DNA of 64,000 bases. Origin: a bacterium CG_4_9_14_3_um_filter_65_15 (GTDB lineage Bacteria > Krumholzibacteriota > Krumholzibacteriia > LZORAL124-64-63). Under the pieces are notes generated by a model. It was not told the origin of the DNA. It saw only the letters and a list, made by a program, of their open reading frames with translations, and ran no database searches. Both the position numbers and the translations under genes were made by a program. Shown one piece after another: positions 27,989 to 34,783 of the stretch (positions are counted from its first letter, which is position 1; every line of letters begins with the position of its first letter). Location: positions 197,621 through 261,620 of the forward strand of contig PFVX01000079.1 in the NCBI GenBank assembly GCA_002790835.1. Reading direction: 5' to 3'.

Positions 27989-29190
27989 AATCCAGCATGC
28001 TCTTTCCCGACCCCTCCGGGGATCTCTGCGATTTTCTGGATCGGCTGCCCGGGCTTCTGGAGCGGGCCCGGCCCCAGAAATCCCGCCACCGCGACCGGCT
28101 TCCCCAGGGCGTGGAAGAACTCTCCAATCTTCTGACCATCGACCGGGATCACCTCCCGCCCGACTACATGGCCCGGCCCCCCCTGCTGGCGGCCTACCTC
28201 CACTACTTCCTGCCCTGGAACCTGGTGCGCCAGGTCCGGCTCCTGGGGGGGCTGGCGGCTCACCTGGATCTGAAACCCGACGCGAGCATCGTGGACGTGG
28301 GCGCCGGACCCCTGACCTTTGCCCTGGCGATGTGGCTGGCCTTGCCACAGCTGCGCACGCGCCGGCTGGACATCACCGCCGAGGACCGGACCGATGCTCC
28401 CATGCGGGTCGGGCGGGACCTGCTGCGGTCCCTGGATTCCGCGGGGTCCTGGCGGGTGGCGTTGTCGCGGCCCGCGGGAATGGGGGGCAGGCAGGGGAGT
28501 TCCGGGACCCCCCGCAGGAAAGCCGATCTGCTGGTGGCGGCCAACGTCATGAATGAGATTCCCCGGGGTGCACACCGCACCGCCGGGAACCCCGGCGCTT
28601 CCCTTCAGGCGCTGTTGCGCAGCTGGGAGCGGAGGTTGACCCCGCACGGCCGGATCCTCGTGATCGAGCCCGGGGTGCGCGATGCGTGCCGCATGCTGAC
28701 GGATCTGCGGGGGCTGGCGCTGGAACGCGGTTGGCGGGTGGTGTCCCCCTGCCCGCATCAACTGGAGTGTCCGCAACCGGGGATCGGCCGGCGGCCATGG
28801 TGTCATTTCGCCTTCGCGACCGGCAAGGTTCCCCACTGGCTGGAGGAGCTGGGCCTCCAGGCTGGCCTGCCCAAGGAGAGGGCGAGCCTGGGCTTTTTGC
28901 TGCTGGAACGGGCCGACGCCGTCACGGCGGACCAGCCTGCCGGCGGCCTCCTGCCCATGCGCGTCGTATCCGACCCCTTCGATCTCCCGGAGGCCCGGCG
29001 GGGAGTTTACGGCTGCACGGCCCGGGGCATGGTCCTGCTGGAGCTGGGGGCGGGGTCCACGCCGCCCCAGGGCGACCTGCTGGAAGTGCGCGAACCGTCC
29101 GGGAAGCGGAAGGACAAAAAATCCGGGGCGCTCATCATCGGCGCCCCGGAAGCGAATTCTCCCCCGTCCCGCGGGCCTAGAAAGCGCTGA
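27985..29190 (+). CDS. Rsm22/METTL17-like methyltransferase-fold protein with Fe-S cysteine motif
   Basis: 401 residues. A SAM-binding motif IVDVGAGPLTFALAMWLAL, AANVMNEIPRG and the segment CPHQLECP...PWCHF match the Rsm22 family (mitochondrial small-subunit assembly factors), whose four-cysteine site holds an Fe-S cluster in METTL17. It probably binds ribosomal RNA or the small subunit; methyl transfer is unproven in the family. The last 25 residues are low-quality, and part of them (KSGALIIGAPEA) is encoded by the terminator of the convergent porin gene. It overlaps hldD by 4 nt and the porin stop by 14 nt. Confidence 0.75.
   Translation: MKSSMLFPDPSGDLCDFLDRLPGLLERARPQKSRHRDRLPQGVEELSNLLTIDRDHLPPDYMARPPLLAAYLHYFLPWNLVRQVRLLGGLAAHLDLKPDASIVDVGAGPLTFALAMWLALPQLRTRRLDITAEDRTDAPMRVGRDLLRSLDSAGSWRVALSRPAGMGGRQGSSGTPRRKADLLVAANVMNEIPRGAHRTAGNPGASLQALLRSWERRLTPHGRILVIEPGVRDACRMLTDLRGLALERGWRVVSPCPHQLECPQPGIGRRPWCHFAFATGKVPHWLEELGLQAGLPKERASLGFLLLERADAVTADQPAGGLLPMRVVSDPFDLPEARRGVYGCTARGMVLLELGAGSTPPQGDLLEVREPSGKRKDKKSGALIIGAPEANSPPSRGPRKR
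29116..29150 (-). terminator. Intrinsic terminator of the cytochrome-porin operon, embedded in the Rsm22-like gene
   Basis: On the minus strand TCCGGGGCGC / GCGCCCCGGA form a perfect 10-bp stem with a 9-nt loop followed by TTTTTT. It lies 27 nt past the porin stop and inside the coding 3' end of the opposite gene. Confidence 0.85.
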
Positions 29191-30379
29191 CGATGCCGAC
29201 CGCTCCGCGGCTCGCTCCATGCTCGACGTCGTAGGTGAATTCCACCGTCAACCTCAGATTGCGCCGATGCAGCCGGGTCACCGCCGCGGTGTAGGTCTCG
29301 TAGTCCGCCGCATCCAGACCCGAATCGATCCGGTTGTACAGCAGGGTCACATAGTGGCGCGAGCGATCCTGTTGCGGGCTGATCACCACTTCGCCCACCA
29401 GGCCCGTCGTTTCGGCATCGATGGAACCGGGCAGGAACAGCGGATTGGTATCCCGGCGCCGGAGATATTGGAAGGAGCCGTCCAGGGTTCCGTTGCCGGC
29501 CTTGAGGTCGAGTCCGTGGAAGAGCAGGCTGTTGCGGAAGACCGTGCCCGCTGAAGCGAGCTTGGGATTCTGCCCGAGCTCGTCCCCGTAGTACCCGAAG
29601 AGACCCACGCTCACGTTGTCGGTGACTCCCTGGCCCACCCTCAGGAAGAAGTTCTTGTACTTGTCGCTGTCGAAACCGGTGGCCTCGGCGGGGTCCTTGC
29701 CGTTGCCGTTGAGAACCATGGCGGTCAGCAGCGTGCCGCTGCGCTCGAGGTCATAATTGACGATGACGCCGCGGTCGTAGGCCAGGTTGGTGTTGGACAG
29801 GCCGATCTTCGACTTGTAGATCAGGTAGTCCTCGTAGGTCAGCCGCAGTTCCCGCTTCATCAACGGGTCGCAGGCCTGGAATTGTCCCACCAGGATGTCG
29901 AGGGGACGGCCGCCGAGGTCGTTGAAGTGGATGTAGGCGTCCTCGACGCCCGCGACCTCGCCCTTCTCCGACATGTAGAAGTAGAAGTAGTAGCCGATGC
30001 CCCGGGACAGGGCTCCGCCCGAAAGGAGTTTCAACCCGAAGGGCATCTGCATGTCGGCCTGCAGCTCGTCTTCCTCGTTCTTCTGCAGGGTCGCGAAGGC
30101 GTCGAACCGTACGGCCACCGGGAAATCCTTGTTCAAGTGCAGCAGGTCGTCACCCGCGCTGATGTAGTCGCGGTCCTTTTCCTCCTCCGGGATGATGAAT
30201 CCGTTGGCTGCGAACTCGTCCCCGAAGGGCTTGAGGCGCGGGAAGGGGGTGTGGCAGGTGGTGCAGCTCAGCTTGTAGCGCCGCGCGAAGGCGGGGATGG
30301 CGCCGGCTGCGTCGGGCAACAGCATGACCGCGGTGGTGACCGCGAGCAGGAACAAACTAAGATTGTTGCGAGTCTTCAT
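29177..30379 (-). CDS. Outer-membrane porin with N-terminal c-type heme (fused cytochrome-porin)
   Basis: 400 residues from the ATG at 30379 (AAGGGAG upstream). A signal peptide ending near AAGAIPAFA is followed by a single heme site CTTCH within RRYKLSCTTCHTPFPRLKPFG. The remainder consists of alternating amphipathic strands (YYFYFYMSEKG, VAVRFDAFATL, RHYVTLLYNRI) and ends in VGIVSAF with a terminal Phe, as in outer-membrane barrels. This is the architecture of fused cytochrome-porins such as the iron oxidase Cyc2, though similar heme-porins of unknown role occur widely. The pentaheme cytochrome gene precedes it in the same operon. Confidence 0.75.
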   Translation of the reverse strand: MKTRNNLSLFLLAVTTAVMLLPDAAGAIPAFARRYKLSCTTCHTPFPRLKPFGDEFAANGFIIPEEEKDRDYISAGDDLLHLNKDFPVAVRFDAFATLQKNEEDELQADMQMPFGLKLLSGGALSRGIGYYFYFYMSEKGEVAGVEDAYIHFNDLGGRPLDILVGQFQACDPLMKRELRLTYEDYLIYKSKIGLSNTNLAYDRGVIVNYDLERSGTLLTAMVLNGNGKDPAEATGFDSDKYKNFFLRVGQGVTDNVSVGLFGYYGDELGQNPKLASAGTVFRNSLLFHGLDLKAGNGTLDGSFQYLRRRDTNPLFLPGSIDAETTGLVGEVVISPQQDRSRHYVTLLYNRIDSGLDAADYETYTAAVTRLHRRNLRLTVEFTYDVEHGASRGAVGIVSAF

Positions 30380-30393
30380 GACGGAACTCCCTT

Positions 30394-31737
30394 TCAATCG
30401 TAGACCTCGACCCAGGTGACGGCTTCGTTGACCAGCTGCGGTGCGGCTTCCTCGGCCGGAACCTGGAGGAATTCGGCCACCGGGCCGACCAGCTTGCTGT
30501 AGTAGAGCGCGGCCCGGAATGAGACACGGCCCGGAGCGAGGTCATCGGGGAGGTTCCAGGTGTAGGTCTCCACCTTGGTCTCGCGGGGCCCGATGCGGTA
30601 GTCGACGCCCTGGGAGGCGGTGTTCCACTGCTGGATGGTCATGCGTCCCTGGGAATCGAAATAGGGCATGCGGAAGATGCGGTCGCCCACGGGCACGCCG
30701 TCGCGCTGGACGCCGGCAAATCCCGGCCGGTCCAGGGGGATGCCCATATCATGGTAGGCCAGCACGTCGGCGGCGATGGTGTACTCCTCGCCGTCGAAGC
30801 CCTTCTTGTCCACCGGCAGATCCCAGGTCTTGCCCTCGCTGTCGGTGGCGGTCACGTGCAACCAGACGATGCGGTCCTCGACCGATCCGGTGGGGACCTT
30901 GTGCCCGCACTTGCCGTTGAACAGCTGGACGTTGACCACGGCGGTGCCGTCGTACTCCACCTCACGCTCCAGGGGGTTCATCCGCAGCTCGATGGCGCCG
31001 TTCACCTTGCCCGGGTCGTGCGCCCCGTGGAAGAGGTGCTGGGCGATCTTGCCCTCGGCGCCCATCTTGGCCGAAGTACCCTTGGCCTTGGGCATGTGGC
31101 AGTCCTGGCATTGGACGCCCTGCGCGAAATATGGTCCCTCTTTCCATTCGAGGTGGGTGCTCTTGACCCATACCCCGTAGGGGCTCATCTCGTTGTGACA
31201 GATGCCGCAGAAGTCTCCGGTCTTGAGGAAGTCGTTCTCGACCGTGTCGTGGTGGGGCGATGCCACGCCGGGCTTGGGTCCCTGCTTGAGTCGTCCCGGT
31301 TCGCTGATGCCGTTGAAGTTGTGGGGCACGTCCCCGGCGAACCCCGTGATGGTGTGGCAGTGGTCGCAGTGAACCGACTCGTTGGCGCGGCTGCCCTCCT
31401 CGGGCAGCGGGGGGGGCGTGTCGCCGGCCAGGAATGCGGTCGGGGCATGGCACCCGTTGCACCCGGCCTTGACCCCGGCCACCTTCGCGTCCTTCTCGGC
31501 GTGGGGAACCGCCAGCTTGAAGTACTCGATCTCGTCCCAGTGGTGGGTGTAGGCTCGGCTCATCATCGATTGGGTCCACTGCTGGTAGATGTTGTCGTGG
31601 CAGCTCGCGCACACCCCCGGCTTTTCGTAGTCAGCGTAGGACCTGGTGCCATAGGCGTCTTCGCCCGCCGGGATCGCGGCCGCCATACCCGGAAGCAGGA
31701 GCACGACGAGGCACACCAACGTCTTCCTTGATATCAT
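30394..31737 (-). CDS. Pentaheme cytochrome c (cytochrome c554-like)
   Basis: 447 residues with signal peptide (TLVCLVVLLLPGMAAA). Five CxxCH sites: CASCH (about residue 43), CNGCH, CDHCH, CGICH and CQDCH, all in the first half, with extra His for axial ligation (HPDH-like, HNF, SPHHD, HLFHGAH). The C-terminal 200 residues are beta-rich without hemes (NVQLFNGKCGHKVPTGS...). It resembles c554-type multiheme proteins that carry electrons in the periplasm. AGGAG lies 6 nt before the ATG. Co-transcribed with the heme-porin 14 nt downstream, implying electron transfer across the outer membrane. Confidence 0.85.
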   Translation of the reverse strand: MISRKTLVCLVVLLLPGMAAAIPAGEDAYGTRSYADYEKPGVCASCHDNIYQQWTQSMMSRAYTHHWDEIEYFKLAVPHAEKDAKVAGVKAGCNGCHAPTAFLAGDTPPPLPEEGSRANESVHCDHCHTITGFAGDVPHNFNGISEPGRLKQGPKPGVASPHHDTVENDFLKTGDFCGICHNEMSPYGVWVKSTHLEWKEGPYFAQGVQCQDCHMPKAKGTSAKMGAEGKIAQHLFHGAHDPGKVNGAIELRMNPLEREVEYDGTAVVNVQLFNGKCGHKVPTGSVEDRIVWLHVTATDSEGKTWDLPVDKKGFDGEEYTIAADVLAYHDMGIPLDRPGFAGVQRDGVPVGDRIFRMPYFDSQGRMTIQQWNTASQGVDYRIGPRETKVETYTWNLPDDLAPGRVSFRAALYYSKLVGPVAEFLQVPAEEAAPQLVNEAVTWVEVYD

Positions 31738-34375: not shown

Positions 34376-34783
34376 ATGCGGAAGTTCAACCTGCTGGTAC
34401 TCTTCGTTTTGGTGGCCGGCCTGGCGGCCTATGCCTATGCTGAGGGCATTCCCGAGAAGATCACCATCGACGATTGCGCCAAGAAGAAGTCGGCTGTGGA
34501 ATTTCCCCACAAGGCCCACTTTGAGCGTACCAAGTGTGAAATCTGCCACCACGTCAACGAGGGTCTGACCGCCGAGAACTTCGCGGAAATGGAAGTCAAG
34601 GCTTGCGGGACCTGCCACGTGGAGCCCGAGAAGGCCGAAACGCCTATCTGCAGCAGCAGCAGCACGAAGAAGAATCCTTTCCACATTCTTTGCATCAGCT
34701 GTCACAAGGACGCCGTGGCGGAGAATGCGGAATCCAAGGCACCGACCAAGTGCACCGCGTGCCATCTCAAGCCTGCGGAGTAA
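34376..34783 (+). CDS. Tetraheme cytochrome c (class III / c3-like)
   Basis: 135 residues. A signal peptide (LLVLFVLVAGLAAYAYA) precedes four CxxCH sites: CEICHH, CGTCH, CISCH and CTACH, with upstream His (FPHKAHF, PFHILC) for bis-His ligation as in cytochrome c3/c7 proteins. It would be a small periplasmic electron carrier. A strong ribosome site (GGGGAGG) and dedicated promoter and terminator make it a single-gene unit. It may shuttle electrons to the pentaheme cytochrome/porin pair 3 kb away (inference). Confidence 0.88.
   Translation: MRKFNLLVLFVLVAGLAAYAYAEGIPEKITIDDCAKKKSAVEFPHKAHFERTKCEICHHVNEGLTAENFAEMEVKACGTCHVEPEKAETPICSSSSTKKNPFHILCISCHKDAVAENAESKAPTKCTACHLKPAE

Follow-up and report, generated by a model that had tools for sequence, protein, structure and literature searches.

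Cyc2 serves as a marker gene for iron oxidation. Like Cyt572, it is a fused cytochrome-porin, in which a signal peptide, a single N-terminal CXXCH heme motif and a barrel of about 16 strands are combined in some 400 residues (PMC8406198, PMC7029218). Its signature comprises AXPXFAR[Q/K][T/Y], CXXCH and PXL (Keffer et al., PMC8406198), its published fold match is OprO (PMC8406198), and its usual partner is a Cyc1-type cytochrome. In MtrCAB, MtoAB and the porin-cytochrome complexes, a porin gene adjoins that of a periplasmic multiheme cytochrome, and in MtrCAB/MtoAB a 26-strand porin sheathes a decaheme wire. Geobacter ExtHIJKL, a large multi-cytochrome cluster, has the gene for ExtKL, a pentaheme selenoprotein, near that for a porin, ExtI, described as heme-free (PMC5877670); ExtKL/sPHC is the name used by Geobacter and cable-bacteria work for this cytochrome type (PMC5877670, PMC11976967). 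The locus described here has something in common with each of these systems: it is a two-gene unit on the minus strand (positions 29177-31737) of a 64-kb stretch, hereafter the window, of a Krumholzibacteriota genome (3.39 Mb, 94 contigs), in which a pentaheme cytochrome gene is followed by a monoheme porin gene (Table 1).

Cyc2 homologues in the phyla concerned are already known: those in metagenome-assembled genomes (MAGs) of Krumholzibacteriota, KSB1, Calditrichota and Eisenbacteria have been read as possible heterotrophic iron oxidation (PMC9769843), and Cyc2-like genes in Ignavibacteriaceae MAGs were noted earlier (PMC6344600). No mention of the pentaheme neighbour was found in PMC9769843 or in the other Cyc2 and porin-cytochrome literature searched, subscription journals being mostly outside reach, and within the searchable literature the pairing is apparently undescribed as a unit. 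Surveys with a threshold of 15 or more hemes per locus, a large one among them (PMC11475568), would miss a six-heme unit.

A fixed pair of genes

The original prediction, made from the sequence of the window, had placed a five-heme cytochrome beside a porin with one CxxCH, and both genes, their heme motifs and their signal peptides were confirmed, the signal peptides and the missing lipobox of the cytochrome being judged by eye; a signal peptide without lipobox would make the cytochrome periplasmic. As start of the porin, TTG at 30397 is less likely than ATG 30379, which is preceded by AAAGGGAGTT in the gap between the genes. That gap has no visible terminator, and the terminator predicted to be shared by both genes holds up on folding as a hairpin with an all-GC 9-bp stem, a 9-nt loop and a T6 tail (-31.2 kcal/mol, z -2.9); the automatic terminator scan, with a loop limit of 8, missed it, and it was found from the sequence and folded separately. 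Since the genes lie on the same strand, tightly spaced and with a single terminator, they are very likely co-transcribed. A convergent Rsm22-family gene overlaps the porin 3' end by 14 bp (window 29177-29190), and the terminator of the pair sits within the coding sequence, at the 3' end, of this gene.

Table 1. Features of the cytochrome-porin unit, with positions in the window.
Feature	Position	Strand	Description or basis
Pentaheme c-type cytochrome gene	30394..31737	-	447 aa, c552/ExtKL ('sPHC') family, signal peptide without lipobox
Heme 1 motif CASCH	31597..31611	-	CX3CH in Zixibacteria/Ignavibacteria relatives
Heme 2 motif CNGCH	31447..31461	-	Invariant in 70 homologues
Heme 3 motif CDHCH	31354..31368	-	Motif scan, alignment
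Heme 4 motif CGICH	31195..31209	-	Motif scan, alignment
Heme 5 motif CQDCH	31096..31110	-	Motif scan, alignment
Cys277 beside invariant His279 (NGKCGHKVP)	30907..30909	-	Alignment of 70 homologues and MccSep
Intergenic gap, 14 bp, with ribosome-binding site AAAGGGAGTT ahead of porin ATG	30380..30393	-	Sequence
Monoheme porin gene	29177..30379	-	400 aa, with a signal peptide, a heme domain at the N terminus and a predicted barrel of 16-17 strands
Porin heme motif CTTCH, inside AIPAFARRYKLSCTTCHTPFPRL	30251..30265	-	Motif scan and homologue comparison
His151, barrel strand; candidate distal heme ligand	29927..29929	-	Suggested by conservation
Best-conserved barrel stretch GQFQACDPLMKRELRLTYEDYLIY, residues 165-188	29816..29887	-	Alignment and model
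Intrinsic terminator common to both genes	~29114..29153	-	Sequence and fold

Within the phylum, 80 Krumholzibacteriota genomes were surveyed. The full porin is present in 42 and the cytochrome in 45, with both in 41 (Fisher p about 5e-17), and in all 29 loci with flank the cytochrome gene has the porin gene immediately downstream; the lone porin without cytochrome (G029) sits 155 bp from a contig end. A wider scan of named genomes yielded 282 related stretches, several Dive96 MAGs among them, and in the best 80 of these 282, which were checked for pairing, the cytochrome gene lies upstream of the porin gene in 78 (a set in which the 29 in-phylum loci are partly contained), the other two being cut by contig ends. 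The record labels of the paired loci are Krumholzibacteriota, KSB1, Calditrichota, Neomarinimicrobiota, Latescibacterota, Zixibacteria, Ignavibacteria, Eisenbacteria, Glassbacteria, Gemmatimonadetes and Kiritimatiellae, and apart from the pair itself the neighbour genes differ between loci. The divergences of cytochrome and porin are correlated (r 0.77, 0/1000 permutations), as shared descent alone would also yield. The pair is co-inherited as a fixed unit across about ten bacterial phyla (FCB group), strict anaerobes among its hosts. The cytochrome occurs without the porin in two genomes (G041 and G075); the G075 locus (L065) and that of G079 (L050) have flanking genes in common, and the porin is absent beside the G075 cytochrome, a natural loss of the porin alone. 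A cytochrome paralogue, 52% identical, stands alone in six loci.

The cytochrome, the porin and their relatives

The cytochrome matches the pentaheme c552 of Thermochromatium tepidum (PDB 5ze8) with E 5.7e-12 by sequence and 1e-14 by profile, and the same entry is the sole strong structural match of its AlphaFold2 model (E 2.5e-15, TM 0.56/0.64), at 22% identity in the structural alignment. Five hemes, an Ig-like C-terminal part and the fold are common to the window cytochrome, c552 and sPHC/ExtKL (PMC11976967), whereas its genetic tie to a heme porin sets it apart. The ExtKL model NF040886 matches it weakly (49.8 bits, below the curated cut-off of 250), as does MccSep. Judged by its sequence, its five c-hemes and its modelled c552 fold, it is a member of the Thermochromatium c552/ExtKL (sPHC) pentaheme family, not MtrA. 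All five heme motifs persist across the 70 homologues, every one ending in CH and none being CxxCK; heme 1 is CX3CH in a group of Zixibacteria, Ignavibacteria and Glassbacteria cytochromes. This variant reads CGTSCH at L141, L150, L151, L152, L155 and L156, and most of these loci also have Met, not His, at porin position 151.

Six more His (65, 79, 163, 234, 240 and 279) are invariant, and would suffice to give each of the five hemes bis-His ligation. Cys277 probably occupies the place of the ExtKL/MccSep selenocysteine, which there stands before GH..P, but the position is Ala in 36, Thr in 17, Cys in 15 and Val in 2 of the 70 homologues, beside a His279 that never varies; in two further copies of the cytochrome, apparent frameshifts away from this position break the gene. 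Because position 277 is not conserved, a selenoprotein enzyme was rejected and thiol or selenol catalysis appears unlikely, which, along with sufficient His for bis-His ligation, favours electron transfer over catalysis as the probable role of the cytochrome.

For the porin, sequence and profile searches gave no match in Pfam, NCBIfam or among PDB sequences. Its AlphaFold2 model, obtained with 29 homologues, is a 16-17-strand barrel (mean pLDDT 70.5, pTM 0.73), in keeping with the 16-strand barrel of Cyc2, and its best Foldseek matches include OmpU and OprO (E 4e-13 to 9e-12; 8.6e-12 for OprO 4rjw), so that the predicted outer-membrane barrel survives modelling; the last residue is a C-terminal Phe. 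The one CxxCH, near the N terminus, is present in 110/110 homologue rows (overlapping sets), and a grouping with heme-free porins did not emerge. Taken together, sequence and model predict an N-terminal c-heme domain with covalent heme joined to a porin-superfamily barrel in one protein. Position 151 (His 72, Met 7, Phe 2; n=81) is the only conserved His/Met apart from CxxCH, and since His and Met are two common heme ligands that swap here, His151 is a candidate distal ligand, on conservation rather than coordinates. GQFQACDPLMKRELRLTYEDYLIY and K117, E138, E146 and D147 show essentially no variation and are likely to line the pore, and a short helix modelled at residues 182-188, within GQFQACDPLMKRELRLTYEDYLIY, is possibly an inward loop that lines it.

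The Cyc2-type layout claimed in the original prediction stands in part. The porin shares with Cyc2/Cyt572 (PMC8406198, PMC7029218) the signal peptide, the single N-terminal CxxCH, AxPxFAR, PxL after the heme, a length of about 400 residues, about 16 strands, the OprO-like barrel and a homologous heme region. Its N terminus, AIPAFARRYKLSCTTCHTPFPRL, reads AIPAFARRY...CTTCH...PRL, with PRL at +4, and its 400 residues lie above the Cyc2 minimum of 365. R replaces the Q/K of the strict motif, however, and because the residues after FAR vary among homologues (R-Y, K-Y, R-H, T-H, Q-Y and others), with K-Y in 32 and Q-Y in 6 of 108 homologous rows (38/108) agreeing with the strict pattern at those two positions, the porin family, as read from its alignment, straddles that pattern. 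Aligned by hhalign with four Cyc2-like proteins from Pseudomonadota plasmids, the paired porins match at 97.9% probability (E 3.4e-13) over 103 columns only, namely the heme domain and first strands, the rest of the barrel not being alignable with the plasmid Cyc2s. Paired porins and plasmid Cyc2s form separate clades (SH-aLRT 94 and 99) in a tree with long branches, in which the paired porins were gathered by similarity, so that their monophyly is partly by construction, and the reference consists of the plasmid proteins alone. On the strength of the R for Q/K, the homology limited to heme region and first strands, and the separate clade, the sequence marks the window porin as Cyc2-like, not Cyc2 proper; Fe(II) oxidase activity, a Cyc2 hallmark, is putative at most. 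In contrast to Cyc2/Cyt572, its family is constantly paired with a pentaheme cytochrome, not a Cyc1-type one, and is present in hosts that lack O2 reductases. The Cyc2-like gene is followed by a c-type cytochrome gene on most of the Pseudomonadota plasmids examined.

Related monoheme porins occur outside the pair. One (AIPAFARKYGFNCMMCH) is encoded immediately downstream of a diheme cytochrome c peroxidase (L041:164-2600, L040) in two genomes of one genus in Krumholzibacteriota, where it perhaps supplies electrons at the outer membrane for the reduction of peroxide. The window genome has a second, stand-alone monoheme porin (GVPTFARAEQMSCNECH, L039:3224-4390, C86), with a similar one in L042; its likeness to the pair porin, about 37%, is confined to the heme region. 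Single-CxxCH proteins some 360 aa long (LPRYSAQYGQSCVLCHTNPTGGG; L043:5339-6439, L044:4870-5952) may be a further heme-barrel type, and their neighbours include a CxxCH protein apparently carrying a sorting tail of the type IX secretion system (T9SS).

Proposed electron exchange and its alternatives

COX1 is present in 51 and cytochrome bd in 26 of the 80 genomes, and oxidases do not predict the pair (no association, p 0.35): 16 of the 41 pair-bearing genomes, mostly of one family (f5), have neither a heme-copper nor a bd oxidase. Of the three reductases screened in this family, DsrA is absent, NarG never rises above cut-off and NrfA occurs in 5 of 20 genomes. The window genome has four COX1 matches and one bd oxidase. 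The pair is not tied to one respiratory chain and, with both oxidases missing from 16/41 of its hosts, gene content indicates that aerobic Fe(II) oxidation cannot be its general role.

We read the pair, with moderate confidence, as a minimal module through which a small soluble redox partner would exchange electrons at the outer membrane. The single heme of the porin would plug the barrel at its periplasmic mouth; a soluble partner, e.g. Fe2+/Fe3+ complexes or a small redox-active molecule, would enter the pore from outside and swap electrons with that heme inside it; and the pentaheme cytochrome would dock on the periplasmic face and shuttle electrons between that heme and the inner-membrane chain. 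Entry of the partner into the pore is proposed on an argument made earlier for Cyc2 (PMC8406198): a small barrel with a single heme cannot by itself take electrons from one side of the membrane to the other. In hosts without any oxygen reductase, the pair more likely exports electrons, and in the oxidase-bearing window genome electrons could flow either way. Such a module is supported by the fixed pairing amid variable flanks, the co-presence, the correlated divergence and the invariant heme motif, as also by the barrel fold, the N-terminal Cyc2 homology, the cytochrome neighbours of related porins and the independence from O2 reductases. The original prediction had also proposed a conduit different from MtrCAB. 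The difference is upheld, since no MtrB/PioB porin (PF11854) was found in the window genome by profile search, on which ground an MtrCAB/PioAB homologue was rejected, and the small barrel with its own heme contrasts with the sheathed decaheme wire; a membrane-spanning conduit is not established, as one heme cannot span.

Several points weigh against electron exchange. Heme insertion, outer-membrane location and electron flow are putative, and the heme domain is modelled with low confidence, residues 20-85 being mostly below pLDDT 50. No inner-membrane or third partner is co-conserved with the pair among the candidates tried: a CbcL-like 11-heme cytochrome b fusion was rejected since it occurs independently of the pair (p=1), a tetraheme cytochrome c3 since it is found in 17/80 genomes and does not track the pair, and other flanking genes since they vary between loci. 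Some pair-bearing anaerobes (G014, G015) have few obvious relay cytochromes, their CxxCH counts showing no excess over the reversed control (294 vs 307 and 65 vs 132), from which it follows that the pair can be one of few c-type cytochrome loci.

Of the alternatives, the one that survives best, though we consider it unlikely, sees in the cytochrome an NrfA/ExtKL-like terminal reductase, acting on a soluble small molecule or an oxyanion, and in the porin a dedicated substrate channel, whose heme would be a relay or sensor; electrons would come from the periplasm and only the substrate would cross the membrane. In its favour, the related ExtKL and MccSep are selenoproteins, the heme-free ExtI of the Geobacter ExtKL cluster is needed for selenite/tellurite reduction (PMC5877670), and the paralogous porins of one genus adjoin an enzyme, the diheme peroxidase. 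Yet the window family differs from ExtHIJKL in being a two-gene unit with a heme porin and Cys/Ala/Thr at the selenocysteine place, where Ala, Thr or Val stands in 55/70 homologues; with all heme motifs ending in CH and six extra invariant His for five hemes, no open site is evident; and a pure channel would need no heme, whereas that of the porin is invariant. Less probable again is a Cyc2-type Fe(II) oxidase whose electrons would flow inward by way of the pentaheme and end on oxygen or nitrate, which would explain the near-exact Cyc2 motif (PMC8406198), the barrel, the earlier reports of Cyc2 homologues in MAGs of Krumholzibacteriota, KSB1 and Calditrichota (PMC9769843) and the oxidases of the window genome, but not the hosts devoid of both oxidases, the lack of any association with oxidases, the reductase profile of the family richest in oxidase-free hosts, or a partner other than the usual Cyc1-type cytochrome. 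That an ordinary porin acquired its CxxCH by chance beside an unrelated cytochrome gene, porin folds being common and single motifs of this kind arising by chance, is hardly credible: no intact homologue lacks the motif, and wherever the flank is long enough the gene order is the same (78/78 across phyla, the other neighbours varying).

A bolder proposal, tentative and improbable as it stands, is that six hemes in two genes form a separate class of trans-outer-membrane electron device, a core trait of FCB bacteria. It would function even in strict anaerobes that have almost no other c-type cytochromes, sending electrons out through the lone heme of the barrel to a small acceptor outside the cell, like an anaerobic Cyc2 in reverse.

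Other host cytochromes and the meaning of the pair

Further cytochrome genes do exist in the window genome, whose 396 CxxCH motifs compare with 122 in the reversed control, both strands counted; its cytochrome content is drawn from such motif counts and seven chosen stretches, which hold a CbcL-like 11-heme/cytochrome-b protein, a T9SS-tailed six-heme ExtKL-related protein and an octaheme protein. The first (L166:5108-7024, C2; 638 aa) fuses an 11-heme c-type part to a cytochrome b561-like membrane part, resembles Geobacter CbcL, and is found in all host-family genomes but one and absent from the oxidase-free families. The tetraheme cytochrome c3 gene lies in the window (34376-34783) on the opposite strand, 2.6 kb from the pair, and two more genomes (L047, L055) have one close to the pair. 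The ExtKL-related protein (L170:1464-4244, C23; 926 aa), which has six CxxCH motifs, resembles ExtKL weakly and ends in a T9SS type A sorting tail, is probably a surface-exposed pentaheme-family cytochrome and a possible extracellular partner of the pair; other genomes of the phylum have frames of about 900 aa that weakly match the pentaheme cytochrome.

Viewed against the described systems, the pair appears to vary the theme of Cyc2, its partner being of c552/ExtKL type; its function we infer from the sequences. It is small enough to reconstitute, which makes electron exchange by one barrel heme across the outer membrane directly testable. And with a large Cyc2-like group locked to a pentaheme cytochrome and common in oxidase-free genomes, a Cyc2-like match in these phyla is not readable as aerobic iron oxidation.

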